NCBI RefSeq assembly: GCF_030696885.1
Contig: NZ_JAUYRI010000009.1
Location: 1-64,000 of the forward strand
DNA length: 64,000 bases
Reading direction: 5' to 3'
Source: Thiobacillus sp.
GTDB taxonomy: Bacteria; Pseudomonadota; Gammaproteobacteria; Burkholderiales; Thiobacillaceae
Shown: positions 19,398 to 41,861 of the stretch, piece by piece
How the letters are laid out: the number at the start of each line of letters is the position of its first letter
Numbering within the stretch: position 1 is the first letter of the stretch
The notes under the pieces: model-generated
Database searches by the model: none
What the model was told of the DNA's origin: nothing
Seen by the model: only the letters and a program-made list of their open reading frames with translations
Position numbers and translations under genes: made by a program

Positions 19398-20339
19398 TTA
19401 GCCGTAGAGCTGGACCGCGAAGCCGTCGTGTTCCCACGCGGCTTTGAGCGTCCAGCCGGCGATTTGCGCCAGCGCGCTGAATTCGTCGCCGCGGAACTTG
19501 TAGGAATGCTCGGTGTGCAGCGTTTCGCCCAGCGCGAAGTGAACGCGTTGTCCCGCGATGTGGATGTCCTGTTCGGCGAGGCTCACCAGATGCATTTCGA
19601 TACGGCCGGCGACCGGGTTGTAGAACGCGTAATGCCGGAAGCGGGTCAGGTCGAAATCGGCGCCCAGTTCGCGGTTCAGCCGTGCCAGCAGATTGAGATT
19701 GAAAGCGGCGGTGACACCGGCTGCATCGTTGTAGGCCGCATGCAGCCGCTGCGGATCCTTCTTGAGGTCGAAGCCGATCAGCAGCTGGCCTTGTGCACTG
19801 GCCAGTTGGCGAAAGCGCGCGAGCAGCGCGCTGGCTTCGTCGGGCGCAAAATTGCCGATGCTGGAGCCGGGGTAGTAGACGAGCCGACGGCCGGCTGGCA
19901 GATAAGGGGTGGCGGCTTCGAGGTCGTGGATGAAGTCCATGCCCAACGCGGTGACGGCAAGCGCCGGGTAGTCGCGGGAGAGCGGTTCCGCCGCCGCCGC
20001 CAGCGGCGCGCCTGCAATGTCCATCACGACGAGATTTGCCGGGTGCAGCGTGTCGAGCAGGCGGCGCACCTTCACGCAGTCGCCTGCGCCCGGCTCGATG
20101 ATGCAGTCCACCGGGCCGAGGGCGGCGGCGATGTCGGGCAGGTGGGCGGCCATCAAGGATTGTTCGGTGCGGCACAGCACGTATTCGGGCTGCGCACAGA
20201 TCGCCTCGAACAGGCGGCAGCCTGCCTCATCGTAGAAATACTTGGGCGGAATGGATTTGGGGCTGGCTGCCAGCCCCGTCAGCACGTCGTCGCGCAGATC
20301 GTCGCGATCGACGGAAAGGTCGGTGTACGCGAACCCCAC
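19398..20339 (-). CDS. egtD: L-histidine N(alpha)-methyltransferase (EgtD-like)
   Basis: LTGLAASPKSIPPKYFYDEAGCRLFEAICAQPEYVLCRTEQSLM, EPGAGDCVKVRRLL, YYPGSSIGNF, LIGFDLKKDPQRLHAAYNDA; GTG start abuts selD stop. Confidence 0.93.
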   Translation of the reverse strand: MGFAYTDLSVDRDDLRDDVLTGLAASPKSIPPKYFYDEAGCRLFEAICAQPEYVLCRTEQSLMAAHLPDIAAALGPVDCIIEPGAGDCVKVRRLLDTLHPANLVVMDIAGAPLAAAAEPLSRDYPALAVTALGMDFIHDLEAATPYLPAGRRLVYYPGSSIGNFAPDEASALLARFRQLASAQGQLLIGFDLKKDPQRLHAAYNDAAGVTAAFNLNLLARLNRELGADFDLTRFRHYAFYNPVAGRIEMHLVSLAEQDIHIAGQRVHFALGETLHTEHSYKFRGDEFSALAQIAGWTLKAAWEHDGFAVQLYG

Positions 20340-21407
20340 TCAGGCCACGATCGTCACGTCATTGCCGGCCTGCAGCCGGCCGATTTCCGTCGCCTGCGCA
20401 AAGCCGTGGCGGTGGAAGGCGTCCAGCACCGCGTCCCGCGATTCGGACGTGCAGCTCACCAGCAGGCCGCCGCTGGTTTGCGGGTCGGTCAGCAGTGCAC
20501 GTTGCCAGTCGGCGATGCCGGGCAGACGGGCTTCGCTCCCGTAGCTCGCCCAGTTGCGCTCGCTGGCGCCGGTGATGTGGCCCGCCTGCGCCAGGGCCGC
20601 CACGCCCGGCAGCAGGGGCAGGTGGGCGAGATCGACCTGCGCGGCCACGTTCGAGGCACGGGTGATTTCGAGCAGATGGCCGAGCAGGCCGAAGCCGGTG
20701 ATGTCGGTCATCGCATGCACGCCGTCGATCGCGGCCAGATCGGCGCCGGGCGTATTGAGCTGGGTGGTGGCGGCGATCATCGCCGCATACTGGTCCGGGC
20801 TCAGCAGGCCTTTTTTCAGCGCCGCGCTGTAGATGCCCACGCCCAGCGGCTTGCCGAGGATGAGGTGGTCGCCGGCCTCGCCGCCGCTGTTCTGCTTGAC
20901 GCGGCGCGGATCGACCACGCCGATGCCGACGAGGCCGTAGATCGGTTCCGGCGCGTCGATCGAATGGCCGCCGGCGATGGGTATGCCGGCGGCCTTGCAG
21001 ACCGATTCGCCGCCGGCGAGGATCTGCCGGATGACGCTGTTGGGCAGCTTGCCGATCGGCATGCCGACGATGGCCAGCGCGAACAGCGGCTGCCCGCCCA
21101 TGGCGTAGACGTCGGACAGCGCGTTGGTCGCGGCGATGCGGCCGAATTCGAACGGGTCATCGACGATGGGCATGAAGAAATCGGTGGTCGCGACGATCGC
21201 CTGCGTCTCGTTGAGCTTGTACACCGCGGCGTCGTCGCCGTGCTCGATGCCGACTAGCAGATCGGGAAACGCGGCGGAAACATGCGAGGCGAAGGGCGTG
21301 TCGGACAGGATGTCGCGCAGCACCGAGGGGGCGATCTTGCAGCCACAGCCGCCGCCGTGGGAGAACTGGGTCAGGCGGATGGGTGCGTCGAGTTGGGGAT
21401 CGTTCAT
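20340..21407 (-). CDS. selD: selenide, water dikinase
   Basis: RLTQFSHGGGCGCKIAP catalytic-loop Cys, DDAAVYKLNETQAIVATTDFFMPIVDDPFEFGRIAATNALSDVYAMGG, DPQTSGGLL. Confidence 0.96.
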   Translation of the reverse strand: MNDPQLDAPIRLTQFSHGGGCGCKIAPSVLRDILSDTPFASHVSAAFPDLLVGIEHGDDAAVYKLNETQAIVATTDFFMPIVDDPFEFGRIAATNALSDVYAMGGQPLFALAIVGMPIGKLPNSVIRQILAGGESVCKAAGIPIAGGHSIDAPEPIYGLVGIGVVDPRRVKQNSGGEAGDHLILGKPLGVGIYSAALKKGLLSPDQYAAMIAATTQLNTPGADLAAIDGVHAMTDITGFGLLGHLLEITRASNVAAQVDLAHLPLLPGVAALAQAGHITGASERNWASYGSEARLPGIADWQRALLTDPQTSGGLLVSCTSESRDAVLDAFHRHGFAQATEIGRLQAGNDVTIVA

Positions 21408-21501
21408 GGTCCGGATTCGTCTATTGGAGTGGGCGCCTGCAGCGTGAAAAATGCGGGTTAACGCGCGCTGGTTACTTGGGCTACAGTGCTTTATATAACA
21501 C

Positions 21502-22659
21502 ATGAATATCAATCGACCTGTCAGCGGCCTTTCTCCTGCATCCCTCATCGACCGCCTTGCAGCGGTGCGCAGCCGCCTGCGCGCGCTGATCGGGTGCCTG
21601 CCTGCCGACGGCTGGCTGGGGCCGCGCGCCGGCCATCTGAACCCGCCGTTGTGGGAGGTTGGGCATCTCGTCTGGTTCCAGGAACGCTGGTGCCTGCGCG
21701 AACGTGCCGACGGCGCGCGCGCGCCCAGCCTGCTGGCGGGCGCCGATGCCTTGTACGACTCTTCGGCCGTGCCGCACGACACGCGCTGGGATCTGCCCTT
21801 GCTGGACCCTGCCGCAGTCGACGACTACGCGCGCCGGGTGGCCGATGCCGTGGCTGCCCGCCTGCGCAACGAATTCGACGGGGACATCGCCTACTTCGCC
21901 GAGCTGTGTGTTTATCACGAGCTGATGCACATCGAAGCCTGGTGGATGGCGTTTCAGGATCTGGGCTATGCGCCCCCCGTCTGGCCGGAAATCGGCGGCG
22001 TGCAGTCGGCGCCGCGGCTGGGGTTTGCCAAAGGCGAGGTGGCGCTGGGCAGCGGAGCCGACGTGGGCTTCATTTTCGACAATGAAAAATGGCGTCACAC
22101 GGTGCCGGTCGCCGCGTTTGATATCGACGCGAGCCCGGTGTCGGAGACGGCCTTCGCCGGATTCGTCGAGGCGGGTGGCTATCAGAATAAGTCAATGTGG
22201 TCGGCGGAGGGCTGGAACTGGCGCCAGCGCACCGACGCCCATCATCCGGTGTACTGGCGGCAAACAGACGATAGCTGGCAGGTGCGGCGCTTCGACCGCT
22301 GGCTGCCGTTGAATGCCGAGACGCCGATGCTGCATGTGAACCGCTTCGAGGCCGAAGCCTTCGCCGCGTGGCAGGGCCGACAGTTGCCGACCGCCGCGCA
22401 GTGGCTGCGCGCGACGGCGCATCCGGATTTTCAGTGGGGCAGGGCGTGGGAGTGGCTGCGCGACCCGTTCGCGCCGTATCCGGGCTTTGCGCCCGATCCG
22501 TATCACGATTATTCCGAGCCCTGGTTCCATACCCACGGCGAATTGCGCGGCGGCGGGCCGGTGACCGACCTTTCGCTCAAACGCGCCGGCTTCCGCAATT
22601 TCTACCTGCCCGAGCGGCGCGATCCGTTCGCGGGTTTCCGGACGGTGAGTCCGGCTTAG
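21502..22659 (+). CDS. EgtB/SenA-like sulfoxide (selenoxide) synthase
   Basis: DinB-like N-term (PPLWEVGHLVWFQERW, YHELMHIEAWWMA) plus FGE-sulfatase domain (PVSETAFAGFVEAGGY, MLHVNRFEAEAFAAWQGRQLPTAAQWLRAT, GFRNFYLPERRDPFAGFRT). Confidence 0.88.
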   Translation: MNINRPVSGLSPASLIDRLAAVRSRLRALIGCLPADGWLGPRAGHLNPPLWEVGHLVWFQERWCLRERADGARAPSLLAGADALYDSSAVPHDTRWDLPLLDPAAVDDYARRVADAVAARLRNEFDGDIAYFAELCVYHELMHIEAWWMAFQDLGYAPPVWPEIGGVQSAPRLGFAKGEVALGSGADVGFIFDNEKWRHTVPVAAFDIDASPVSETAFAGFVEAGGYQNKSMWSAEGWNWRQRTDAHHPVYWRQTDDSWQVRRFDRWLPLNAETPMLHVNRFEAEAFAAWQGRQLPTAAQWLRATAHPDFQWGRAWEWLRDPFAPYPGFAPDPYHDYSEPWFHTHGELRGGGPVTDLSLKRAGFRNFYLPERRDPFAGFRTVSPA

Positions 22660-27011: not shown

Positions 27012-27053
27012 ACGTCATTACTCGTCATAACAAGTTCTGGAGTCTGACGCGAA

Positions 27054-27815
27054 ATGGTGAAGCCACGGAAAACCCCCTCGCAACTGCTGCACGTGTCGCC
27101 GGTGCCGCTCTACACGCAAATCAAGGAGATCCTGCGCGACCGGATTCTCGACGGCAGCTACCAGGCGCACGAACAGATGCCGTCGGAAAGCGAGTTGATG
27201 AGCACCTTCGGCGTCTCCCGAATCACGGTGCGGCAGGCCCTGGGCGACCTGCAGAAGGAAGGCCTGATTTTCAAGATCCACGGCAAGGGCACCTACGTGT
27301 CCAAGCCGAAGGCGTTTCAGAACATCGCCGAACTGCAGGGCTTCGGCGAGGCGATGTCGAGCATGGGCTATGAGACCTTCTCGCGCGTGGTGAGCATCAA
27401 ATCGATGCCCGCCGGTGCGACGGTCGGTGCCAGGCTGAACGCGGCGGACAGCGAGGAAATCGTCGAATTGCGCCGGGTGCGCTACCTCAATCGCGCGCCG
27501 ATCTCGCTCGACGTGACCTATGTGCCCAAATCGATCGGCGAGCGCCTGGCGAAGGAAGACCTGGCGCATCGCGACATCTTCCTCATCCTCGAAAACGACT
27601 ACGGCATTGCGCTCGGCGCGGCCGAGCTGCAGATCGAATCCATGCTGGCGGACGATTATCTGGCGCGCCAGTTGAAAGTGGAGGAGGGCGCGCCGGTCCT
27701 GCGGATCGAGCGCCTCACCCTCACCGCAGACGGTCGTCCGATCGATTTCGAATACCTCTATTACCGCGGCGATGCCTTCCAGTACCGGATGCGCATCGAG
27801 CGTTCCCACGTCTAG
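27054..27815 (+). CDS. GntR family (HutC/UTRA-type) transcriptional regulator
   Basis: VPLYTQIKEILRDRILDGSYQAHEQMPSESELMSTFGVSRITVRQALGDLQKEGLIFKIHGKGTYV; UTRA-like C-terminal domain. Confidence 0.95.
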   Translation: MVKPRKTPSQLLHVSPVPLYTQIKEILRDRILDGSYQAHEQMPSESELMSTFGVSRITVRQALGDLQKEGLIFKIHGKGTYVSKPKAFQNIAELQGFGEAMSSMGYETFSRVVSIKSMPAGATVGARLNAADSEEIVELRRVRYLNRAPISLDVTYVPKSIGERLAKEDLAHRDIFLILENDYGIALGAAELQIESMLADDYLARQLKVEEGAPVLRIERLTLTADGRPIDFEYLYYRGDAFQYRMRIERSHV

Positions 27816-27824
27816 GAGATTTTC

Positions 27825-29555
27825 ATGAGCGACATGTTTGCGGAAGTGGATGTGCTGGTGATTGGCGGCGGGACCGCGGGTCCGATGGCGGCCGTCAAGG
27901 CCAAGGAAAAAAATCCGGCGTTGAAGGTGATGCTGCTGGAAAAAGCCAACGTGAAGCGCAGCGGCGCGATCTCGATGGGCATGGACGGCCTCAACAACGC
28001 GGTGATTCCAGGGCACGCTACGCCCGAGCAGTACGTCAAGGAAATCACCGTCGCCAATGACGGCATCGTCAACCAGAAGACGGTGATGGCCTACGCGCAG
28101 GAAAGCTTCAACATGATCAACCAGCTCGACCGCTGGGGGGTGAAGTTCGAGAAGGACGAGACCGGCGACTACGCAGTGAAGAAGGTGCACCACATCGGCA
28201 CCTACGTGCTGCCGATGCCGGAAGGCCATCACATGAAGAAGGTGCTGTATCGCCAGCTGAAGAAGGCGCGCGTCGAGATCACCAACCGCTACATGGCCAC
28301 GCGCCTGCTGCTGGATGCAAACGGCGCGATCGCCGGCGCGATGGTGCTCGACACCCGCGAAGGCACGTTCGGCGTGATCCGTGCCAAGTCGGTGATCCTC
28401 TGCACCGGTGCGGCCGGCCGGCTCGGCCTGCCGTCCTCCGGCTATCTGTTTGGCACCTACGAGAATCCGACCAACGCCGGCGACGGCTATGCGCTGGCCT
28501 ATCACGCCGGCGCAGAGCTCTCGGGCATCGAGTGCTACCAGATCAACCCGCTGATCAAGGACTACAACGGCCCGTCGTGCGCCTACGTCACCGGTCCCTT
28601 CGGCGGCTACACCGCAAACTCCAAGGGCGAGCGCTTCATCGAGTGCGACTACTGGAGCGGCCAGATGATGATGGAGTTCTACAAGGAACTCGAAGGCGGC
28701 AACGGCCCGGTTTTCCTCAAGATGGACCATCTGGCCGAGGAGACGATCGGCACCATCGAGCACATCCTGCACAGCAACGAGCGTCCGAGCCGGGGCCGTT
28801 TCCACGAAGGGCGGCATCTCGACTACCGCCAGGGCATGGTGGAAATGCACATCTCCGAAATCGGCCTGTGCAGCGGCCACTCGGCTTCCGGTGTGTGGGT
28901 GGATGAGCATGCGGCGACCACCGTGCCGGGCCTCTACGCCGCCGGAGACCTTGCCTGCGTGCCGCACAACTACATGCTGGGCGCCTTCGTCTACGGCCAG
29001 TTCGCAGGGCAGAGCGCGGCCGAGTACGCCATGTCGCATGAACTGCCGGCGGTCGATGACGTGCAGGTCGAGGCCGAGCGCAAGCGCGTGCTGGCGCCGC
29101 TGTCGGTGGTCGACGGCCTGCCGCCGGCCCAGGTCGAGTACAAGTTGCGCCGCTTCGTCAACGACTATCTGCAGCCGCCCAAGGTGACGAAGAAGATGGA
29201 AATCGGCCTCGACCGCTTCGCGGAAATTCGTGCCGACCTGGATTCCATGTCGGCAGCGAATCCGCACGAACTGATGCGGGCGATGGAAGTGCATTTCATC
29301 CTCGACTGCGCGGAGATGGCTGCCCACGCTTCCCTCTACCGCACCGAGTCGCGCTGGGGCCTCTATCACTACCGTGTCGAGCATCCAGAAAAGGACGACG
29401 CCGACTGGTTCTGCCACGCCCAGCTGAAGAAAAACGAGGCGGGTGAAATGACCTGCTTCAAGCGCCCCATCGAACCCTACATCGTCGAACTCGACGATGA
29501 GGAGAAGGATGCCTACAACCGCCTGCGTGTCGTCAAGCAGGCCGAAGCCGCCTAA
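27825..29555 (+). CDS. AprA-like / fumarate-reductase-type FAD flavoprotein
   Basis: DVLVIGGGTAGPMAAVKAKEKNP, SMGMDGLNNAVIPGHATPEQYVKEITVANDGIVNQ, PGLYAAGDLACVPHNYMLGAFVYGQFAGQSA. Confidence 0.85.
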   Translation: MSDMFAEVDVLVIGGGTAGPMAAVKAKEKNPALKVMLLEKANVKRSGAISMGMDGLNNAVIPGHATPEQYVKEITVANDGIVNQKTVMAYAQESFNMINQLDRWGVKFEKDETGDYAVKKVHHIGTYVLPMPEGHHMKKVLYRQLKKARVEITNRYMATRLLLDANGAIAGAMVLDTREGTFGVIRAKSVILCTGAAGRLGLPSSGYLFGTYENPTNAGDGYALAYHAGAELSGIECYQINPLIKDYNGPSCAYVTGPFGGYTANSKGERFIECDYWSGQMMMEFYKELEGGNGPVFLKMDHLAEETIGTIEHILHSNERPSRGRFHEGRHLDYRQGMVEMHISEIGLCSGHSASGVWVDEHAATTVPGLYAAGDLACVPHNYMLGAFVYGQFAGQSAAEYAMSHELPAVDDVQVEAERKRVLAPLSVVDGLPPAQVEYKLRRFVNDYLQPPKVTKKMEIGLDRFAEIRADLDSMSAANPHELMRAMEVHFILDCAEMAAHASLYRTESRWGLYHYRVEHPEKDDADWFCHAQLKKNEAGEMTCFKRPIEPYIVELDDEEKDAYNRLRVVKQAEAA

Positions 29556-29566
29556 GGAGAATTTTC

Positions 29567-29800
29567 ATGCCCATGACCCTGAACCGGGTATCCGTGCCCG
29601 TGACCGTGGACGAGGACGCCTGCATCGCCGACAAGGGCTGCACGGTCTGCGTCGAATCCTGCCCGCTGGATCTGCTCGCCATCGATCTGTTGAAGAAGAA
29701 GGCGTTCATGAAATTCGACGAGTGCTGGTACTGCCTGCCGTGCGAGAAGGATTGCCCGACCCAGGCCATCCGCGTCGACATCCCCTACCTGCTGCGCTAG
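29567..29800 (+). CDS. AprB-like short 2[4Fe-4S] ferredoxin
   Basis: CIADKGCTVCVESCPLDLLAID and CWYCLPCEKDCPTQAI; resembles N-terminal part of AprB but only 77 aa. Confidence 0.88.
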   Translation: MPMTLNRVSVPVTVDEDACIADKGCTVCVESCPLDLLAIDLLKKKAFMKFDECWYCLPCEKDCPTQAIRVDIPYLLR

Positions 29801-29809
29801 GAGCCCCGC

Positions 29810-30760
29810 ATGATGCCTGCAACCTACCCCGCTGATCTGAAAAGCCGCCTGGCGAGCACCGACCCCGAGGTCCGACGCATTGCAGTCATGGATCTTCTGG
29901 ACAGCGATGAGGACTCCATCGACCAGTACCTGCTCGATGCGCTGAAGGATACCGACGCCCAGGTGCGCGCCGAGGCGGCGCGCCTGCTCGAAGGCTACGA
30001 GACGCCCAAGGTGGTCGAGGGGCTGATCGGCGTGCTGGGTGACGACAGCGCCGAGGTGCGCGAAGCCGCTGCGATTTCGCTTTCCGAGCTGAAGGACGCC
30101 GCGATGGGGGACGAACTGTTGTCCGCGCTGCCCGCGTCATCGTCGCCCTACATGCTTGCGTCCCTGTTTCGTGCCCTGCGTGAACTGCGCCGACCGGAAG
30201 CCTTCGCGCCGGCACTGGCTGCGCTGGCCTCGGACGCGGCCGATGTCCGCTGTGCCGCGCTCGGCGTGCTGGGCTATCTGAAAAATCCGGCTGCGTTGCC
30301 GGAGATCGCGCGCATTGCCGGCAGCGATCCGGACGTGGAAGCCCGCCGCATCGCGGTTGGGGCGCTCGGCTTTGCCACTGAATCCGCTGCGGTGGTTCCG
30401 GCGATGACGCAGGCACTGGTGGATACCTCGTGGCAGGTGCGCGAGGAGGCGGCCGCCACGCTTGGCAAATTGCTCGCCGCCGAGGCCATCGACGATCTGA
30501 TTGCCGCGATGGCCGATCCCTACTGGCAGGTGCGGATCAAGGCCGCGCGCAGCCTGGGGCGCCTGAAGGCGAAGCCGGCCCTGCCGGTGCTGATCGACGC
30601 GCTCGGCCACGAGATCAGCAACCTGCGCAAGGAAGCGGCCGTCGCCCTCGGCGAAGTCGGCGACAAGGCCGCCATTCCCGCGCTGGAAAAGGCGCTCGAC
30701 GACAGCGATCCGGACGTGCGCAAGCTCGCGCGCCTGGCCCTGGCCCAACTCACGAAATGA
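29810..30760 (+). CDS. HEAT-repeat (PBS-lyase-like) protein
   Basis: About nine helical repeats such as DPEVRRIAVMDLL, DAQVRAEAARLL, SAEVREAAAISL, SWQVREEAAATLGKL, YWQVRIKAARSLGRL, DPDVRKLARLAL. Confidence 0.88.
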   Translation: MMPATYPADLKSRLASTDPEVRRIAVMDLLDSDEDSIDQYLLDALKDTDAQVRAEAARLLEGYETPKVVEGLIGVLGDDSAEVREAAAISLSELKDAAMGDELLSALPASSSPYMLASLFRALRELRRPEAFAPALAALASDAADVRCAALGVLGYLKNPAALPEIARIAGSDPDVEARRIAVGALGFATESAAVVPAMTQALVDTSWQVREEAAATLGKLLAAEAIDDLIAAMADPYWQVRIKAARSLGRLKAKPALPVLIDALGHEISNLRKEAAVALGEVGDKAAIPALEKALDDSDPDVRKLARLALAQLTK

Positions 30761-30770
30761 GGAGCACGAC

Positions 30771-31106
30771 ATGACCTACGTTGTTGCGGAACCCTGCATC
30801 AAGTGCAAATACGGCGACTGTGTCCCGGTGTGCCCGGTGGATGCATTCCACGAGGGTCCGAATTTCATGGTGATCGACCCGGAGGAGTGTATCGACTGTT
30901 CGCTGTGCGTCGACGAGTGTCCGGCCGGTGCGATTTTTGACGAGGCCAAGTTGCCGGAGGCGTACGCGCGCTACGTCGCGCTGAACGCCGAACTGACGCA
31001 GGTGTGGCCGCTGATCAAGGACAAACCGGAGCCGCTTCCCGATGCGGATGCGTGGGTCGATACGCAGGACAAGTTTCAGTATCTGGAGAAGATGCAAGCC
31101 GCCTGA
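30771..31106 (+). CDS. FdxA-like ferredoxin
   Basis: TYVVAEPCIKCKYGDCVPVCPVDAFHEGPNFMVIDPEECIDCSLCVDECPAGAIFDE. Confidence 0.92.
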   Translation: MTYVVAEPCIKCKYGDCVPVCPVDAFHEGPNFMVIDPEECIDCSLCVDECPAGAIFDEAKLPEAYARYVALNAELTQVWPLIKDKPEPLPDADAWVDTQDKFQYLEKMQAA

Positions 31107-31219: not shown

Positions 31220-31283
31220 GAATAGCGTTGGATAACAAGTTGCAGTGAGCTCTCAATCAATTCAACAGGAAGGCAGGCACGAC

Positions 31284-32744
31284 ATGAACAGAACGCGCAG
31301 TTTCCCCACCCGAACGACACCCCCCCGAAAGATAACTGCCGCGCTGGCCTTGGTCGGCGTGCTGCTCGCGCCAGCCGCGTACGCGGACACCGTGACCGTC
31401 GGCATCGGCACGCAGAACACGACGACCAATACCGTGACCGCCGGCATCGTCATCGACAAGCTCGGCCTGCTGGACAAGTACCTGGCCGAACTGAAAAAGA
31501 CGCCGAAGTACAAGGACATCGATTTCAAGCTCGACTGGCAGAACTTCACCTCGGGTCCGCCGGTGACCAACGGCATGGTGGCGAACAAGCTGCAGATCGG
31601 CATGATGGGCGACTACCCGCTGCTGGTGAATGGCGCGACCTTCCAGGCCGGCACCGAAACCAAGAGCGAGCTGATCGCACTGATTGCCTACAACAAGGAT
31701 GGCGCCGGCAACGGCATGGTTGTGCACAAGGACTCGCCGTACTACGAACTGGCTGATCTCAAGGGCAAGAAGGTGTCGGTGCCGTTCGGCTCGGCTGCAC
31801 ACGGCATGCTGCTGAAGGCGATGGAGGACCGCGGCTGGAAGGAGGATTTCTGGGACCTCGCCAGCCAGAGCCCGGAAGTGGGGACCACTAACCTGCAGGA
31901 GCGCAAGCTCGACGGCCATGCCGACTTTGTGCCCTTCGCCGAACTGCTGCCCTACCGCGGTTTTGCGCGCAAGATCTTCGACGGCGTCGAGACCAAGGTG
32001 CCGACCTTCCATGGCATCGTGGTGCGCAAGGACTTCGCCGACAAGTATCCCGAGTTCGTGGTGGCCTACCTGAAGTCGCTGCTCGACGCGAATGACTGGG
32101 TGCGCAAGAACCCGGCCATGGCCGCGACCAAGATCGAGGAGTGGACCAAGATCGAGAAGGAAGTCGCCTACATGTTCCTCGGCCCCAGCGGCGTGCATAC
32201 GCTCGACCCGACCATCAAGCCGAAGTGGATCGAGACCGTCAAGATCGGCCATGGCGTGCTGCAGCGCATGGGCCGGGTGAAGGACTTCAACGCCGGGATC
32301 TGGGGCAACGAGATCTTCATCCGGCAGGCGTTCAAGGAAAAGGGTCTCGACTACGACAAGCAGAAGGCGAGCTTTGCCGGCTATGAGATCAGCGGCACCG
32401 ACCCGCTGTGCAAGAAACCAATCAGGAACCCGCGTGAAGGCGGCGAAGTCTGGGTCGAAGGCGGCGCCATCACGGCCTACAGCTCCACTTCCTGCACGCT
32501 CGCCGGGGTGAAGAAGGCGTTGTCCGAAGGCAAGAAGATCGGCGTGGCCTTCGTGTTCGACAAGACCACGGGGATCAAGCTGTTCGCGGACAAGGCGTTC
32601 TACGCGCTCAACGCCAAGGATCCGAAAAAGATCGAGATCGTGCCCTTCCTGCTGAAGAAAGATGCCGAAGCCTGGGCAGCCAAGGGCGGCGGCCGGCTTG
32701 CCACCTACACGGAAGTGTTGGCTGTCGCGAAAGTCGGGGGGTAA
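31284..32744 (+). CDS. NitT/TauT-type ABC substrate-binding protein with C-terminal NosL-like domain
   Basis: Signal peptide; SBP core; C-terminus VAFVFDKTTGIKLFADKAFYALNAKDPKKIEIVPFLLKKDAEAWAAKGGGRLATYTEVLAVA resembles NosL. AGGAAGG precedes ATG at 31284; the ORF track GTG start is 31245. Confidence 0.8.
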   Translation: MNRTRSFPTRTTPPRKITAALALVGVLLAPAAYADTVTVGIGTQNTTTNTVTAGIVIDKLGLLDKYLAELKKTPKYKDIDFKLDWQNFTSGPPVTNGMVANKLQIGMMGDYPLLVNGATFQAGTETKSELIALIAYNKDGAGNGMVVHKDSPYYELADLKGKKVSVPFGSAAHGMLLKAMEDRGWKEDFWDLASQSPEVGTTNLQERKLDGHADFVPFAELLPYRGFARKIFDGVETKVPTFHGIVVRKDFADKYPEFVVAYLKSLLDANDWVRKNPAMAATKIEEWTKIEKEVAYMFLGPSGVHTLDPTIKPKWIETVKIGHGVLQRMGRVKDFNAGIWGNEIFIRQAFKEKGLDYDKQKASFAGYEISGTDPLCKKPIRNPREGGEVWVEGGAITAYSSTSCTLAGVKKALSEGKKIGVAFVFDKTTGIKLFADKAFYALNAKDPKKIEIVPFLLKKDAEAWAAKGGGRLATYTEVLAVAKVGG

Positions 32745-32747
32745 ATC

Positions 32748-33695
32748 ATGCGACCCGCAACCAGCCTGAACATCGTGACCGATCCAGCCGCTGACGCAGC
32801 GGAAGGGCCGAACCTGGCACTTGCACCCAAGCCCGGCGTCCTGCCGAAGGCCATCCTCGCGCCAGCGCAGGCGGCCGAGGTGCCGGCCCGGCGCGTCGCA
32901 GCCTGGTTGCGGAGCGCACTTCCAAAATTGCTGATGACGACGCTGTCGCTGGGAATGTTCATCGCCTTCTGGTACTTCGCCACCAAGTACAAGCTGGATT
33001 TCTACATCCGCTTCAACAATATCCCGAGCCCTGGCGAGGTATGGGAGAACGCGGCCTATCTGGCGCAAAGCGACAAGTTCTACAACAACATGTACGTCAG
33101 TCTGCGGCGGATTCTGATCGGCTTCGGCATCGCCACCGTGCTGGGCGTGGCGCTGGGGCTGCTGATCGGCCAGTACCGTCTCGCACGCGGCCTGCTGTTC
33201 CCGCTGTTCGAGACCCTGCGGCCGATCCCGGCGATCGCCTGGGTGCCGATGGCCATCATGCTGTGGCCCACCAACGAAACCAGCATCGTGTTCATCACCT
33301 TTCTGGGTTCGTTCTTTCCGATCCTGCTCAACACCATTCACGGCGTGAACAGTGTCGACCCGGTACTGTTGCGTGCGGCGCGCTGCCTGGGCACGTCCGA
33401 ATTCGGCCTGCTGCGCCAGGTCGTCCTGCCGGCTTCCCTGCCGCACATCTTCACCGGACTCGCCATCGGCATGGGCGTGGCCTGGGTGTCGCTGATCGCC
33501 GCCGAGATGATCTCGGGCCAGTTCGGCATCGGCTATTTCACCTGGGAAGCCTATTCGCTGATCGAATACGCCGACATCGCCATTGGCATGATCGTAATCG
33601 GCGTGCTCGGCCTGCTGTGCAGCGGCGCCATCCGCATCCTGGGCAACATGCTGATGCCCTGGATGGCGGGTTCCCAACATGGAGGACAGAAATGA
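32748..33695 (+). CDS. ABC transporter permease (NitT/TauT type)
   Basis: EAA-loop-like AARCLGTSEFGLLRQVVLPASLPHIFTGLAIGMGVAWVSLIAAEM. Confidence 0.92.
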   Translation: MRPATSLNIVTDPAADAAEGPNLALAPKPGVLPKAILAPAQAAEVPARRVAAWLRSALPKLLMTTLSLGMFIAFWYFATKYKLDFYIRFNNIPSPGEVWENAAYLAQSDKFYNNMYVSLRRILIGFGIATVLGVALGLLIGQYRLARGLLFPLFETLRPIPAIAWVPMAIMLWPTNETSIVFITFLGSFFPILLNTIHGVNSVDPVLLRAARCLGTSEFGLLRQVVLPASLPHIFTGLAIGMGVAWVSLIAAEMISGQFGIGYFTWEAYSLIEYADIAIGMIVIGVLGLLCSGAIRILGNMLMPWMAGSQHGGQK

Positions 33696-34570
33696 TGAGC
33701 CCAACCGACGACACCCCCAGTGCCACCGGCCATATCCTGATCGATCATCTGCGTGTCCGCTTCGGCAGCAAGGCGGCCGCGGTGGAGGCGGTGAGCGATG
33801 TCTCGATGGAAGTGAAGCCAGGCGAATTCGTCTCCATCATCGGCCCCTCGGGCTGCGGCAAGTCGACCCTGCTCAACGTGGTGGCCGGCTTCGTCCAGCC
33901 GAGCGAGGGCACGGTGAGCATGGACGGCAAGCCGACCGACAAGCCGAGTGCCGACCGCGGCATGGTGTTCCAGCAGTACTCGCTGTTCCCCTGGCTCACC
34001 GTGCGCAAGAACGTCGAGTTCGGTCTCAAGCAGAAGGGGCTGGACGCCAATCACCGCGAGGAGGCGGCGCGCACGCTGCTCGGCCTGGCCGGCCTGCTCG
34101 CGTTCGAGAACCACTATCCGGACCAGCTCTCCGGTGGCATGAAGCAGCGCGTCGGCATCGTCCGCGCGCTGGCCACCAGTCCGCAGGTGCTGCTGATGGA
34201 CGAGCCCTTCGGCGCGCTCGACGCACAGACCCGGGTGGTGATGCAGCAGATTCTCACCAACATGTGGCAGCGCTTCCGCATCTCGGTGCTGTTCATCACG
34301 CACGACATCGACGAGAGCATTTTCCTGTCGGATCGGGTTTATGTGATGACCGCACGCCCAGGGATGATCAAGGCCGAGATCCCGATTCCGCTGCCGCGGC
34401 CGCGTACGCCTGACATGGCGCTGAGCCCGGAGTATCTGCAGATCAAGCAGCAGTTGCGGGAGCTGATCACCGAGGAAAGTCTCAAGGCGATGGGCGGCGA
34501 GCTGAAGGACAGCGGGCTGGCGGGCTTCGACATCGAGGTCGGACCGAAGGGCGTCGCGGAACTGGTCTGA
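33692..34570 (+). CDS. ABC transporter ATP-binding protein (NitT/TauT type)
   Basis: Walker A GPSGCGKSTL, signature LSGGMKQR, Walker B VLLMDEPFGALD; overlaps permease stop. Confidence 0.95.
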   Translation: MMSPTDDTPSATGHILIDHLRVRFGSKAAAVEAVSDVSMEVKPGEFVSIIGPSGCGKSTLLNVVAGFVQPSEGTVSMDGKPTDKPSADRGMVFQQYSLFPWLTVRKNVEFGLKQKGLDANHREEAARTLLGLAGLLAFENHYPDQLSGGMKQRVGIVRALATSPQVLLMDEPFGALDAQTRVVMQQILTNMWQRFRISVLFITHDIDESIFLSDRVYVMTARPGMIKAEIPIPLPRPRTPDMALSPEYLQIKQQLRELITEESLKAMGGELKDSGLAGFDIEVGPKGVAELV

Positions 34571-34646
34571 ACATCGGGCCGGCATGCCGGCCTGTTGTTC
34601 TCCCCATCTTGTTATGACATGTACTGCAATGTGGAAAGGATGCGCC

Positions 34647-37600
34647 ATGACGTCGACCCTGAAACTGGATCTTGAGGGATTCGATTACGCGGATATCTAC
34701 CAGGCGGCGCAGCTCCCGCTTCTGGATGCACGCTTCGACGCCTGGCTTGCAGGACGCGACGACGCACTCGCAGCGCGCTACCGCGACTACCGCAAGGGCG
34801 GGGCGCTGGCCGGCCCCGAGGAATCGAGCCTGCTGATTGCCGTGGCGCGCGAACTGGAGGATTTCCTGGTGGCGGCGTTCGGTGTCGGCCCTTCGCGTGA
34901 CAGCCTGCGCGCCGAACAGGAACGCGACGCGGTCGTGCATGCCTTCAAGCGCGAATTCGTCAAGCGCCGCATCCGCAAAAAACGCAGCGCGCCGACACGG
35001 GATTTTGCCGAACTCGACGCCCTGATCCCGGCGCAGCCGCAGGCCGACCGCGAGTGGTGCGTCGCCCGCTTCTGGGCCGAGACTTCGCAGGCCGGCAACG
35101 CTGAGCAGCTGGCGCTGCTGGAGGAATGGCTGCATGCCGCCTGCCACAGCGACGCCGGCCGGGCGGCCACGTCAGGCTGGGTCAGCCTCGCCCTGCCGCA
35201 GACCACCGATTACTTCAAGCTGGTGCCGATCGTGGCGGTCCCGGCTGACAATACGGGCCGCGTGCAGGGGGCCGCCGACGCACGCCGACGCGACGGCTTC
35301 GATCTCACCGACACCCGTCCGGGCCTGCGCCACGCGATGGATCAGGTGGATTACTGCGTGTACTGCCATGACCATTCGGGCGACTTTTGTTCGCGTGGAT
35401 TTCCTGCGAAGGAGGGTGAAGGCTTTCGCAGCAATCCGCTGGAGGTTCCACTGACCGGCTGCCCGCTGGAAGAGCGCATTTCGGAAGCCCATGTGCTGAA
35501 GCGCGACGGCTACTCCCTGGGCGCGCTGGCGATGATCATGCTGGACAATCCGCTGCTGCCCGCCACCGGGCACCGCATCTGCAACGACTGCATGAAAAGC
35601 TGCATCTACCAGAAGCAGGATGCGGTGAACATTCCCGAAATCGAGACGCGCATCCTCACCGACGTGCTGGACTGGCGCTGGGGCTTCGAGCTCTATTTCA
35701 CGCTGACGCAATGGAATCCGCTCAACCGCGCGCGGCCGTACCGCCTGCCATACAACGGCCGCAATACGCTGTGCGTCGGTGCCGGGCCGGCCGGCTTCAA
35801 TCTCGCGCACCATCTTTTGCAGGAAGGCTTCGGCGTGGTCATCGTCGACGGCCTCAAGATCGAACCGCTGCCCCCCGAACTGTTTGAAGCCAATGGACGG
35901 CCGACGCGTCCGGTGGAACACGTCACCGACCTGTACCAACCGCTCGACTCGCGCATCAATTCTGGCTTCGGCGGCGTTGCGGAATACGGCATCACGGTGC
36001 GCTGGGACAAGAATTTCCTGACGCTGATCCGGCTGGTGCTCGAGCGCCAGCCCGCCTTCCGCGTCTACGGCGGCATCCGCCTCGGCGGCACGATCATGCT
36101 GGAAGACGTGCCTGCGCTCGGCTTCGATCACGTAACGCTTGCGACCGGCGCCGGTCGCCCCACGGTACTGCCGGTGCGCAACAACATGGCACGCGGCATG
36201 CGCCAGGCGAGCGATTTCCTGATGGCGCTGCAGCTTACCGGCGCGGCCAAGCGCGATAGCCTCGCCAACCTGCAGGTGCGCCTGCCGGCAGTGGTGATCG
36301 GCGGCGGCCTCACCTCGATCGACACCGCTACCGAAGTGCAAGCCTATTACGTCCGCCAGGTGGAGAAGGTGCTGGCGCGCTGGGAAGCAGTCGGCGAAGC
36401 CCGTGCTGGTCTGTTCGACGCCTACGAGCGGGGCGTGCTGGATGAATTCCTGGCGCACGGCCGGGCGGTGCGTGCCGAGCGCGAACGCGCGCTGGCCGTC
36501 GGCGAATTGCCCGATTTCACGCCGCTGATCCGCGCCTGGGGCGGCGTCACCGTCGTCTACCGCCGCTCCATGGCCGACTCTCCGGCCTACCTGCGCAACC
36601 ACGAAGAAATCATCAAGGCACTGGAGGAGGGCATCTTCTACGCTGAACGGCTGGAGCCGAGCGAGGCCGTGCTCGACGAACACGACCACGTGCAGCAGCT
36701 GCGCTGCGTGCACACCGACAGCGGCGAGACGGTCACGCTGCCGGCGCGCGCAGTGCTGGTGGCCGCCGGCAGCATCCCCAACACCGTGTACGAGCGCGAG
36801 CATCCGGGCACCTTCGAAATGGATGGCAAGTATTTCGCCGCCTATCGCATCGACGCCGCCGGGAGCATGGTGCGGGTGCCCACGACGGGGCATTGCAAGG
36901 GGGAGCAGCCGGGCTTCTTTACTTCGTATAGTGCGGGCGAGCTCAAGGTGTCCTTCGTTGGCGACAACCACCCCTGGTACCACGGCAGCGTGGTGAAGGC
37001 GATGGCGTCGAGCAAGCATGCGGCGCGCGATATCACCGCGCTGCTGCTGGGGCGCGATTCGCAAGCGGCGTCCGCAACCGATCAACGCACATTCGATGTC
37101 TTCGCGGCGTCACTCGATGCGGCACTGTGTCCCGAAGTGGTCGCGGTCGAGCGCCTGGCGCCGCATCTCACCAGCCTGACCGTGCGCGCGCCGCAGGCGA
37201 CGAAGCACTGGCTGCCGGGGCAGGTGTACCGGCTGCAGAATTTCGAACAGCACGCGGAACACGTGGCGGGGCAGATGCTGGCAATGGAGGGCATGGCCAT
37301 CGATGGCGTGCATGTGGACAAGGCGCGCGGCGAGGTGCAGCTGCTGATCAACAGCGTCGGTGTGTCGAGCCGGATCGCCGCGTCGCTCAAGCCCGGCACG
37401 CGCGTGATCCTGATGGGTCCGACCGGGACTGGCCTGCCGGTGCCGGAAAACGCGACCGTGACGGTGGCGGGCGGGCACTCCGCCGTGACCAGCACCGTGG
37501 ACGGCGCGGCGGTGTGGCGCGCGGCCGGCAACCGCATCGTGTTCATCGGGCACTTCCGCAACACCGAGCGGGCGCGGGCCGTGCAGCGCGTCATCGAGAT

Positions 37601-38174
37601 CCTCACGGACCAGGCGATCTGGGTGCTGGACGAAGGCCCGGCGCTGACCCTGCGGCGGCAGCAGGACGCCTGCTTCGTGCATGGACTGGACGAGTTTCTG
37701 CAGTCCTGCGCCGAGATGGACGCGCCCTTTACCGACTGGGTGCGTCAGACCGACCAGTTCATTCTGTCGGATCATCCGGAATCGATGGAGACCTTCCGCA
37801 GGCGCCTGCGTGCCGAGCTGAAACCTTCTTTGAAACCCGGCTTCAATGCGATCGCGGCGGTGAACAGTCCGATGCAATGCATGATGAAGGAAGTGTGCGC
37901 GCAGTGCCTGTGCCGGCACGTGGACAGCACGACCGGCGAGCCGTCCAAATTTGTCTTTTCCTGCTTCAACCAGCATCAACCCCTGTTCGAACTCGACTTC
38001 GCGAACCTGCAGGCGCGCCAGGGACAAAACAGCGTTCAGGAGAAAATATCCAATGCCTGGCTGGGGTATCTGATGGATGGAAAGCGGGAGGCCATGGTGT
38101 CGGACACCGATCCGGCGTGCGCGGGATGCTGTGAAGCGGCCGGTGCGCCTGTGGGGGAAGGCGAAGCAACATGA
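34647..38174 (+). CDS. large multidomain Fe-S/flavin pyridine-nucleotide oxidoreductase (GltD-like plus DHODB electron-transfer-like C-terminus)
   Basis: Cys-rich block (CVYCHDHSGDFC...GCPLEERI...CNDCMKSC), two dinucleotide folds (LCVGAGPAGFNLAHHLLQEGFGVVIVDG; VVIGGGLTSIDTATE), FNR/DHODB-like C-terminus and CMMKEVCAQCLC. Confidence 0.85.
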   Translation: MTSTLKLDLEGFDYADIYQAAQLPLLDARFDAWLAGRDDALAARYRDYRKGGALAGPEESSLLIAVARELEDFLVAAFGVGPSRDSLRAEQERDAVVHAFKREFVKRRIRKKRSAPTRDFAELDALIPAQPQADREWCVARFWAETSQAGNAEQLALLEEWLHAACHSDAGRAATSGWVSLALPQTTDYFKLVPIVAVPADNTGRVQGAADARRRDGFDLTDTRPGLRHAMDQVDYCVYCHDHSGDFCSRGFPAKEGEGFRSNPLEVPLTGCPLEERISEAHVLKRDGYSLGALAMIMLDNPLLPATGHRICNDCMKSCIYQKQDAVNIPEIETRILTDVLDWRWGFELYFTLTQWNPLNRARPYRLPYNGRNTLCVGAGPAGFNLAHHLLQEGFGVVIVDGLKIEPLPPELFEANGRPTRPVEHVTDLYQPLDSRINSGFGGVAEYGITVRWDKNFLTLIRLVLERQPAFRVYGGIRLGGTIMLEDVPALGFDHVTLATGAGRPTVLPVRNNMARGMRQASDFLMALQLTGAAKRDSLANLQVRLPAVVIGGGLTSIDTATEVQAYYVRQVEKVLARWEAVGEARAGLFDAYERGVLDEFLAHGRAVRAERERALAVGELPDFTPLIRAWGGVTVVYRRSMADSPAYLRNHEEIIKALEEGIFYAERLEPSEAVLDEHDHVQQLRCVHTDSGETVTLPARAVLVAAGSIPNTVYEREHPGTFEMDGKYFAAYRIDAAGSMVRVPTTGHCKGEQPGFFTSYSAGELKVSFVGDNHPWYHGSVVKAMASSKHAARDITALLLGRDSQAASATDQRTFDVFAASLDAALCPEVVAVERLAPHLTSLTVRAPQATKHWLPGQVYRLQNFEQHAEHVAGQMLAMEGMAIDGVHVDKARGEVQLLINSVGVSSRIAASLKPGTRVILMGPTGTGLPVPENATVTVAGGHSAVTSTVDGAAVWRAAGNRIVFIGHFRNTERARAVQRVIEILTDQAIWVLDEGPALTLRRQQDACFVHGLDEFLQSCAEMDAPFTDWVRQTDQFILSDHPESMETFRRRLRAELKPSLKPGFNAIAAVNSPMQCMMKEVCAQCLCRHVDSTTGEPSKFVFSCFNQHQPLFELDFANLQARQGQNSVQEKISNAWLGYLMDGKREAMVSDTDPACAGCCEAAGAPVGEGEAT

Positions 38175-39195: not shown

Positions 39196-39740
39196 GCGCT
39201 TCGAATCGCTATTCGACGACCGCGATCCTGCTGCACTGGCTGATGGCACTGCTGATTTTTACCACGTTCCCGCTGGGCCTCTACATGGTCGACCTGCCGC
39301 TGTCGCCCGACAAGCTCAAGCTCTACAGCTATCACAAATGGATCGGCGTCACGGTCTTTCTGCTGATCGCGATCCGCCTGGCGTGGCGGGCGACGCACAC
39401 GCCGCCGCCGCTGCCGGACGGCATCGTCGTCTGGCAGCGCCGCGCCAGCCGCATCGCGCATGGCCTGCTGTATGTGCTGATGATCGCGATTCCACTGTCG
39501 GGCTGGCTGATGAGTTCGGCCAAGGGTTTCCAGACCGTATGGTTCGGCGTGCTGCCGCTGCCCGACCTGCTCGACAGGAACCGCGAGCTGGGCGACCTGC
39601 TTGCAGGGGTGCACAAGGCGCTGAACTTTAGCTTGCTGGCGCTGGTCATCCTGCACGTGGGCGCGGCACTCAAACACCATTTCATCGAACGCCAGCCCTT
39701 CCTGCAACGCATGGGCTGGAGCAGAAAGGAGCGCACATGA
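39192..39740 (+). CDS. cytochrome b561
   Basis: Four TM segments; STTAILLHWLMALLIF, LYSYHKWIGVTVFLLIAIRLAWR, LHVGAALKHHFIERQPFLQRM. Confidence 0.93.
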   Translation: MSASNRYSTTAILLHWLMALLIFTTFPLGLYMVDLPLSPDKLKLYSYHKWIGVTVFLLIAIRLAWRATHTPPPLPDGIVVWQRRASRIAHGLLYVLMIAIPLSGWLMSSAKGFQTVWFGVLPLPDLLDRNRELGDLLAGVHKALNFSLLALVILHVGAALKHHFIERQPFLQRMGWSRKERT

Positions 39741-40291
39741 AACTCAACGCAATGATCGTGCTGGCCGCACTGGCTACGCCGATGGCACACGCGGTGGAAT
39801 ACCGCACGGTGCTGCCGAAGCAGAGCGCGGTCCAGTTCGAATTCCGCCAGATGGGCGTGCCGGTGAAGGGGCACTTCAAGCGCTTTGCCACCGAGATGGC
39901 GTTCGACCCGGCCAAGCCTGAGGCCGCGCGCGCGCGAATCGAGATCGACCTTGCCAGCATCGACGCCGGCTCGGCCGAAGCCGACGAGGAGTCCGCCGGC
40001 AAGCTGTGGTTCAACCGCAGCGTGTACCCCAAGGCCGTGTTCGTCTCCAGCGCAGTGCGCGCGCTCGGCAACAACCGTTTCGAATTGCGCGGCACGCTGA
40101 CGCTTAAGGGCACCACCCGCGACATGACGATCCCGGTCAGCTACACCCCCGGCGCAAACGCCGCCACCTTCGACGGCGGCTTCGCGCTCAGGCGCCTCGA
40201 CTTCGGCATCGGCGAAGGCATGTGGACGGACGTCAGTGCCGTCGCCAACGAAGTCCAGGTCAAATTCCGCATTGCCGCCACCGGCAACTAA
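39737..40291 (+). CDS. YceI family protein (copy 1)
   Basis: Signal peptide; QSAVQFEFRQMGVPVKGHFKRFATEMAFDP, TRDMTIPV. Confidence 0.9.
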   Translation: MKLNAMIVLAALATPMAHAVEYRTVLPKQSAVQFEFRQMGVPVKGHFKRFATEMAFDPAKPEAARARIEIDLASIDAGSAEADEESAGKLWFNRSVYPKAVFVSSAVRALGNNRFELRGTLTLKGTTRDMTIPVSYTPGANAATFDGGFALRRLDFGIGEGMWTDVSAVANEVQVKFRIAATGN

Positions 40292-40320
40292 CCCACTGTT
40301 CATTCCTAAAGGAGTCACAT

Positions 40321-40902
40321 ATGAAACGTCTCGCCCTTGTCACCGCCCTGGCCGCCCTGGCCGTGACCGCCCACGCTGCGCCGGTGACCTACACCATCGA
40401 CAACAGCCACACCTATCCGCATTTCACCTACAACCACCTGGGCTTCTCCAACCAGACCCACAAATTCGACAAGACCACCGGCACCGTGGTGCTCGATCGC
40501 GCCGAGCAAGTCGGCTCGGCCATCGTGACCATCGACGCCAACTCGGTCAACACCGGCTATGCGCTGTTCAACGAACACCTGCGGGCCGCCGATTTTTTCG
40601 ACACGGAAAAGTACCCGACGATCACGTTCAAATCGGACAAGATGGCGTTTCGCGGTGACCAGCCGATCTACATGGTGGGCGACCTGACGATCAAGGGGGT
40701 GACCAAACAGGTGACGCTCGAGATCACCCACTTCAAGTGCCAGCCGCATCCGATGAAGAAGGTAGAGGCCTGCGGTGCCAACGCGACCACCCAGATCAAG
40801 CGCTCGGAATTCAACATGGGCAAAAACGCGCCTTTCGTCAGTGACGACGTCACGCTGACCATCGCGATCGAGGCGGTCAGGGAACAGTCGACCGCCCAAT
40901 AA
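40321..40902 (+). CDS. YceI family protein (copy 2)
   Basis: Signal peptide; YTIDNSHTYPHFTYNHLGFSNQTHKFDKTTGTVVLDR, FFDTEKYPTITFKSDKM, GDLTIKGVTKQVTLEI. Confidence 0.93.
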   Translation: MKRLALVTALAALAVTAHAAPVTYTIDNSHTYPHFTYNHLGFSNQTHKFDKTTGTVVLDRAEQVGSAIVTIDANSVNTGYALFNEHLRAADFFDTEKYPTITFKSDKMAFRGDQPIYMVGDLTIKGVTKQVTLEITHFKCQPHPMKKVEACGANATTQIKRSEFNMGKNAPFVSDDVTLTIAIEAVREQSTAQ

Positions 40903-41258
40903 CCCGACGCCGAAAGCGGGGCCGGACGTGCGCGCGTGATCGCGGCATGTTCGGCCTTTTTTGTGTTTTGCGGACCTGGCATGGCCTGGTCGGGGCTTGC
41001 CGAAAGGTCGCCCCGTTCGACGCAGCGTGTTGGATTTACATCGATTTGCGCCTGTTTCCGGAAAAAACCAGGACCCTCGTAAACACACAACCCATTGTTT
41101 TATTTAAATATTGCGTGTTTGCGCCTGAGTTGAACGGCGTGGCATGGCAGTTGCAGGAAATCTGCACTGCTCCTTGAAGTAGCGACATCCCAGGAGTGGC
41201 ATGGCGGCATCGCCGCCAGAGAGAAGTATCCGGGTGTTCATTCACACAAGGAGCTCAG

Positions 41259-41861
41259 ATGAAACGTCTTGCCACGTTGACCGCGCTTGTTGCCTTTGCC
41301 GCCGCCGCCCAGGCTGCGCCTGAAACCTATGTCATCGATAACAGCCAGACCTCGTCCCTGTTCAGCTATCGCGCGCTGGGGCTGTCGAACCAGACGCACC
41401 GCTTCGAAAAGATCAGCGGCAAAGTGGTGTTCGATCATGCCGCCAGGACCGGTTCGGCCGATGTGATGATCGATGCGACCTCGGTGAACACCGGCAATTC
41501 CCTGTTGGACGAGCATATCCAGGCCGCGGATTTCTTCGACACCGCCAATCATCCGGCAATCATTTTCAAGTCCACCCGAATGACGCTGGATGGCGAGCAA
41601 CCGAGCATGTCGGGCAACTTGACGATCAAGGGCGTGACCCGTCCGGTGACGCTTGCCGTCAGCAACTTCCAGTGCATGCAGGATCCCAGCTTCAAGCTGG
41701 AGTCCTGCGGCGCCCAGGCAACCGTCACGATCAGGCGTTCGGATTTCAATATGGGCAAGCACGCGTTCCTGGTCAGCAACGACATCACGCTGAATCTGGC
41801 AATCAAGGCGGTCAAGCCGCAGCCTGTCCTGCAGGTGGCAAGCCGCGATCCAGGCCGGTAA
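41259..41861 (+). CDS. YceI family protein (copy 3)
   Basis: Paralogous to copy 2: YVIDNSQTSSLFSYRALGLSNQTHRFEKISGKVVFDH, FFDTANHPAIIFKSTRM, GNLTIKGVTRPVTLAV. Confidence 0.93.
   Translation: MKRLATLTALVAFAAAAQAAPETYVIDNSQTSSLFSYRALGLSNQTHRFEKISGKVVFDHAARTGSADVMIDATSVNTGNSLLDEHIQAADFFDTANHPAIIFKSTRMTLDGEQPSMSGNLTIKGVTRPVTLAVSNFQCMQDPSFKLESCGAQATVTIRRSDFNMGKHAFLVSNDITLNLAIKAVKPQPVLQVASRDPGR

Follow-up and report, generated by a model that had tools for sequence, protein, structure and literature searches.

The locus considered here raises the question of what a single polypeptide that joins a GltD-like and a DHODB-like module does beside an importer and an AprA-like gene in Thiobacillus sp., and to which partners it may pass electrons. 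The window, i.e., the whole stretch of DNA analysed, comprises 64,000 nucleotides, and the following features of it concern the fused protein itself:

34647..38174, + strand: fused NfnB-NfnA-type Fe-S flavoprotein, 1175 aa (NCBIfam, profile, AlphaFold model, fold search)
34647..35291, + strand: predicted N-terminal all-helical domain, residues 1-215 (AlphaFold model, fold search)
35355..35645, + strand: two-4Fe-4S site, C237, C240, C248, C272, C312, C315, C319, E333 (conservation; NfnB motif)
35763..37046, + strand: GltD-like FAD/NADPH domains, with Arg452 at flavin N5 and Arg639/Arg640 for NADPH (Pfam, profile, fold, alignment)
37122..37766, + strand: DHODB/NfnA-like FAD and NAD domains (profile, fold search, alignment)
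37845..37982, + strand: 2Fe-2S site, C1078, C1084, C1087, C1106 (invariant in 126/126 sequences)

The frame is open from the ATG at 34647, with GAAAGGA upstream of it, through the stop at 38174, and all the motifs quoted in the first-pass annotation are found in the translation; the length of about 1176 aa given there includes the stop and is corrected to 1175 aa. Of the Pfam domains named there for the search, Pyr_redox_2 alone passed, Fer4_20, NAD_binding_1 and DHODB_Fe-S falling below the pass level, and the relatives of the fusion showed Fer4_20 and NAD_binding_1 weakly. Pfam alone was, for this protein, insufficient as proof of the modules, and a profile together with a structure model was needed. 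Among the NCBIfam models PRK06567 ranked first (5e-158), with 527.8 bits that lie below the curated cut-off of 1072 (four relatives score 582-676 bits), followed by the DHODB-GltD fusion PRK12778 and, lower, by the DHODB-like PRK06222 over residues 830-998. In a PDB search, the profile built from 44 relatives gave E-values of 1e-20 to 1e-21 for the NfnL and NfnS of P. furiosus, the span for NfnL, NfnS and T. maritima NfnAB together being 1e-14 to 1e-21, and matched PyrK more weakly. The predicted structure, an AlphaFold2 model of pLDDT 88.1 and pTM 0.89, was aligned by Foldseek with Pyrococcus NfnL (target TM 0.81, about 615 columns) and with NfnS, 5jca_S (TM 0.87, rmsd 3.2, 325 columns). The presence of GltD and DHODB modules in one chain, as first proposed, is thus borne out by NCBIfam, the profile and the fold search, and, because of the matches to NfnL and NfnS, the chain is read as containing the whole of NfnB and, after it, the whole of NfnA.

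The single-chain form had been presented at first as unusual, which did not hold: such Nfn homologs are already on record as patterns B and C in the sections of PMC6405883 drawn on here, NCBIfam has the families PRK06567, PRK12778 and PRK12779 for them, and the fusion is present in 52/274 genomes sampled from the class, a count that rests, as do the other genome counts, on samples and partly incomplete genomes. Being known and common, the fusion itself is therefore not unusual. Across the GTDB genomes 583 stretches encode a relative, and the best 80 of the 583 include Acidobacteriota, Myxococcota, Ignavibacteriota, Planctomycetota, Nitrospirota, and methanotrophs; clustering of the neighbours at about 90 fusion loci gave no universal partner, most of the relatives standing alone. 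The architecture agrees with Pattern C and PRK06567 in having the GltD module first and the DHODB module last, C-terminal in one chain, the M. curtisii type protein itself being left out of this comparison, and differs from PRK06567 in the below-cut-off score. The same sections of the 2019 review (PMC6405883) record fused homologs of the B-then-A order as never characterised and, unlike the locus studied here, describe for Pattern C no GntR regulon or AprA-like link. The literature search gave nothing directly on the operon, SaoP or the PRK06567 name. In comparison with NfnAB, the protein is one chain of B-then-A order with a 215-aa N-terminal domain; a fold search of the PDB with this domain gave no match. 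The unmatched domain is counted among the novelties, and it is paralleled by about 207 residues that precede the GltD part in PRK06567.

The likeness to NfnAB extends to both modules and both folds, to the seven Cys and the Glu for two 4Fe-4S clusters, to the Arg at b-FAD N5, and to the 2Fe-2S site at the C-terminus. The NfnB-type GltD fold of the fusion carries two 4Fe-4S sites whose seven cysteines and Glu333 are invariant in 126/126 sequences, and the NfnB motifs found are among those tabulated in the cited part of PMC6405883, with the cysteine spacing of C-x2-C-x7-C and C-x2-C-x3-C that differs from Nfn. Equally invariant (126/126) are Arg452, which aligns within the YGI..R segment of NfnL with the Arg at b-FAD N5, and Arg639 for the NADPH phosphate, while position 640, Arg in the fusion, is Lys in many relatives. 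Since StnC keeps the N5 Arg yet is non-bifurcating (PMC10482914), the conservation of this residue leaves bifurcation unsettled.

The NfnA arm has the expected FNR fold, as the match to 5jca_S indicates, and departs from Nfn in its motifs. The motifs ERxPxT (a-FAD) and DGTGMCGxCRx10CV (Asp-ligated 2Fe-2S), listed as those of Nfn in the part of PMC6405883 used, are replaced in the fusion by E-G-M-A-I-D (37287-37304; EGLALT in most relatives) and by C-x5-C-x2-C...C, with four Cys, the first of them standing where NfnAB has its Asp ligand. In the NAD site, GGHSAVTS (within 37458-37508) stands for the glycine motif GGGLGNA, which in the alignment of the fusion relatives is retained in 79/126 rows and altered in 47/126. 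On the subfamily tree, computed without the GGGLGNA columns, the loss is a single change with a support of 100, the fusion of the window falls into the altered 47-row subfamily, and the named members of the latter are all Pseudomonadota (Acidithiobacillus, Sulfuriferula, Chromatiales, and others). This subfamily with the lost NAD motif is counted as new. Purifying selection on the NfnA-type regions is strong, the dN/dS of the FAD, NAD and 2Fe-2S regions between the members of the genus being about 0.0 to 0.2, i.e., about as low as in the catalytic GltD parts; a decaying NAD arm is ruled out by these values. Because of this low dN/dS the arm is probably in use, and its use with NAD in the usual way appears improbable.

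The latter bears directly on the classical Nfn function, in which flavin-based bifurcation or confurcation would couple NADH, NADPH and ferredoxin and the NfnA arm would be the place of NAD. Every b-FAD-side element and the 2Fe-2S ligands are retained, the fold matches NfnAB, and GGGLGNA persists in the larger part of the alignment; however, that motif is missing from the fusion and from its whole subfamily, ERxPxT is altered, and the N5 Arg alone is no proof of bifurcation. Judged by these residues, classical NADH/NADPH bifurcation is the less likely function and should be held unlikely, though it survives better than the other alternatives discussed below, and a second acceptor docking at the changed NfnA arm could still allow bifurcation.

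The partners of the fusion were sought in the neighbouring genes, with the following features upstream of it:

27020..27035, - strand: predicted GntR operator before gntR, ACTTGTTATGACGAGT (motif search)
27054..27815, + strand: GntR/UTRA regulator (Pfam)
27825..29555, + strand: AprA-like flavoprotein, PRK08275, best PDB match PAPS reductase alpha 8a8o (NCBIfam, PDB profile match)
29567..29800, + strand: AprB-like 2x4Fe-4S ferredoxin, 77 aa (Pfam)
29810..30760, + strand: HEAT-repeat protein (Pfam)
30771..31106, + strand: FdxA ferredoxin, NF045490, above cut-off (NCBIfam)
31245..32744, + strand: SsuA/TauA-type substrate-binding protein with a NosL-like C-terminus (NCBIfam and other matches)
32748..33695, + strand: ABC permease (NCBIfam, Pfam)
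33692..34570, + strand: ABC ATPase (Pfam)
34575..34594, + strand: strong GC-rich hairpin downstream of the ATPase gene and ahead of the fusion (conservation within the genus)
34607..34622, + strand: predicted GntR operator before the fusion, TCTTGTTATGACATGT (motif search)

The fusion had been described as standing next to two ferredoxins; both lie in the same cluster, but FdxA is separated from the fusion by 3.5 kb, on the upstream side, and by three ABC genes. The NosL-like part of the substrate-binding protein (32370-32741) matches Pfam NosL at E 7e-4, below the cut-off, and such an importer-NosL fusion is an unusual arrangement.

The AprA-like protein matches the M. thermolithotrophicus PAPS reductase alpha in the PDB at 5e-64, ahead of AprA at 1e-44. 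The position of the APS-binding Arg265 (numbering counted from the 2fja alignment) is taken by an invariant Leu in 14/14 AprA-like sequences, and the genome has elsewhere two genuine aprA genes, both of which keep Arg265. Because of this Leu the protein is not classed as an APS reductase, and that identity was rejected. Its closest solved relative is the enzyme MtPAPSR of Methanothermococcus thermolithotrophicus (PDB 8a8o), a likeness that bears on the neighbour, not on the fusion, and from which the AprA-like family is set apart by the Leu at the APS site; for MtPAPSR either reduced ferredoxin, or NAD(P)H via an unidentified partner, was proposed as the donor (PMC10322725). The AprA-like/AprB-like pair (27825-29800) is widespread on plasmids of soil bacteria under the label 'fumarate reductase/succinate dehydrogenase flavoprotein'. 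The same cluster, on pTcM1, corresponds to the 'ferredoxin/APS reductase/GntR' cargo with a TauT-type transporter of the F. caldus plasmids in the sections of PMC12375680 cited here, where two of the operons on these plasmids are predicted to function in the uptake and assimilation of organosulfonates, and where neither the fusion nor its role is discussed. The operon beside the fusion probably takes up a sulfur compound and reduces it. In Acinetobacter, the AprA-like operon has a DUF971 gene with it (L153:15159-15440), and such a gene appears, by its sequence, to follow the ATPase gene and precede the fusion in one further locus (L021).

The fusion is tied to this operon by a shared sequence. 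Sites resembling ACTTGTTATGACATGT precede both gntR, at a distance of 18 bp, and the fusion, at 24 bp, with a chance expectation of 0.12 in the window. As the pattern was taken from the fusion-side site, the genome-wide rarity is the stronger argument: with no more than one mismatch to ACTTGTNATNACAWGT, the 3.0-Mb genome contains two sites, the one before gntR and the one before the fusion. Other members of the genus have both sites as well, as do Sulfuriferula (L030) and genomes of two other genera, G298 (L144) and G085 (L145), and in fusion-free operons such a site precedes gntR or the AprA-like gene (L147, L148, L152, L153). The function of these sites as operators is inferred from their predicted sequence. 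Since the conserved hairpin divides the ATPase gene from the operator of the fusion, the latter looks like a transcription unit of its own, the second in a GntR regulon, and this predicted regulon that ties the fusion to the operon is counted as new. Its other members would be the AprA-like/AprB-like pair, the HEAT-repeat protein, FdxA, and the sulfonate-type importer. The counterpart of the hairpin stem in L015 and L016 is 17 bp long, with paired changes.

The gene distribution shows the same connection. Within the genus the fusion occurs in 7/7 genomes with the AprA-like gene, and one further genome has the fusion only, there cut by the contig end. In G002, a member of the genus (L029, around 7503), a scar joins GntR residues 1-76 out of frame to fusion residues 885-1157, the block from gntR to the fusion being lost by one deletion. 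The fusion meets the AprA-like operon in three parts of the tree, namely, the clade of the window, the A. caldus plasmid pTcM1 (L154), and G040 (L021); G040 and G085 each have one copy within the operon and a second copy outside it. As for the NAD(P)H:ferredoxin exchange or bifurcation suggested by the first-pass annotation, the ferredoxin link gained support, as FdxA directly precedes the fusion on pTcM1 and also in L026 and L028, where the operon is absent, and belongs here to the same predicted regulon. The AprA-like operon is also found with no adjoining fusion in G147, G306, Cupriavidus, and Acinetobacter; therefore, the fusion is not obligatory for it.

The reading that we prefer, with a probability of about 0.58, is the NADPH-driven reduction of FdxA that feeds the AprBA-like enzyme acting on an imported, probably organosulfur, substrate, with the NfnA arm not serving NAD+/NADH. 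The fusion would be a single-chain Nfn-family oxidoreductase, NfnB then NfnA, of the PRK06567-like kind. NADPH would be oxidised at its GltD-like FAD, this direction of the electrons being the presumed one, and single electrons would pass via the two 4Fe-4S clusters to FdxA as the putative partner. FdxA may then supply the AprB-like ferredoxin and the AprA-like flavoprotein of the same GntR regulon, which would reduce the compound imported by the SsuABC-like system. The NfnA arm of this subfamily, with the 2Fe-2S site kept and the nicotinamide site changed, may serve another partner or tune the flavin. The Leu at the APS-binding position of the AprA-like protein counts, from its sequence, against this explanation, as do the fusion-free operons and the stand-alone fusions. 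Its extension to the subfamily, by which sulfur-oxidising proteobacteria gave up the NAD arm and hold a dedicated NADPH-to-ferredoxin donor of an AprBA-like reductase for an imported organosulfur compound, is tentative and rather doubtful as a whole.

The electrons might also run in reverse; the fusion would then take up those released in an AprA-like oxidation and, as a ferredoxin:NADP+ reductase, regenerate NADPH with them. In sulfur oxidisers genuine AprA operates oxidatively, and the genome has two genes for it. The Nfn reaction goes towards NADPH in vivo, according to the part of PMC6405883 used; however, the closest characterised relative of the AprA-like protein, MtPAPSR, is a reductase (PMC10322725), and an importer controlled by a separate regulator points to the uptake of a scarce nutrient more than to a main energy pathway, which makes the reverse direction quite improbable. 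Still less credit is due to the fusion itself as the substrate reductase, e.g., of a sulfur compound, with the AprBA-like pair doing something else: the P. furiosus NfnI also has a sulfide dehydrogenase activity (PMC6405883, in the part cited), but the recognised features of the fusion are all those of electron transfer, with no added substrate domain besides the unmatched N-terminal helices. A general redox enzyme placed beside the operon by chance, as the many stand-alone homologs might suggest, is very improbable against the predicted operator that gntR and the fusion share and that has no third occurrence in the genome, the co-loss and co-occurrence with the operon in the genus, and the three separate linkages on the tree.

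If NADPH does drive the AprBA-like enzyme through FdxA, the locus would represent a new way of acquiring sulfur that is driven by ferredoxin and for which the electron donor, the importer and the regulator are identified together. The MtPAPSR paper leaves the NAD(P)H partner of its enzyme open (PMC10322725), and for the related AprBA-like enzyme of this locus the fusion is a candidate for that part. The locus gives a fused Nfn homolog a probable set of partners and a single regulator, which makes its function directly testable.

Elsewhere in the window, two further gene groups were noticed on inspection of the sequence: EgtD-like and EgtB-like ORFs of the ergothioneine pathway with a SelD-like ORF between them (19398-22659), and two or three tandem YceI-like ORFs beside a cytochrome b561-like ORF (39737-41861).
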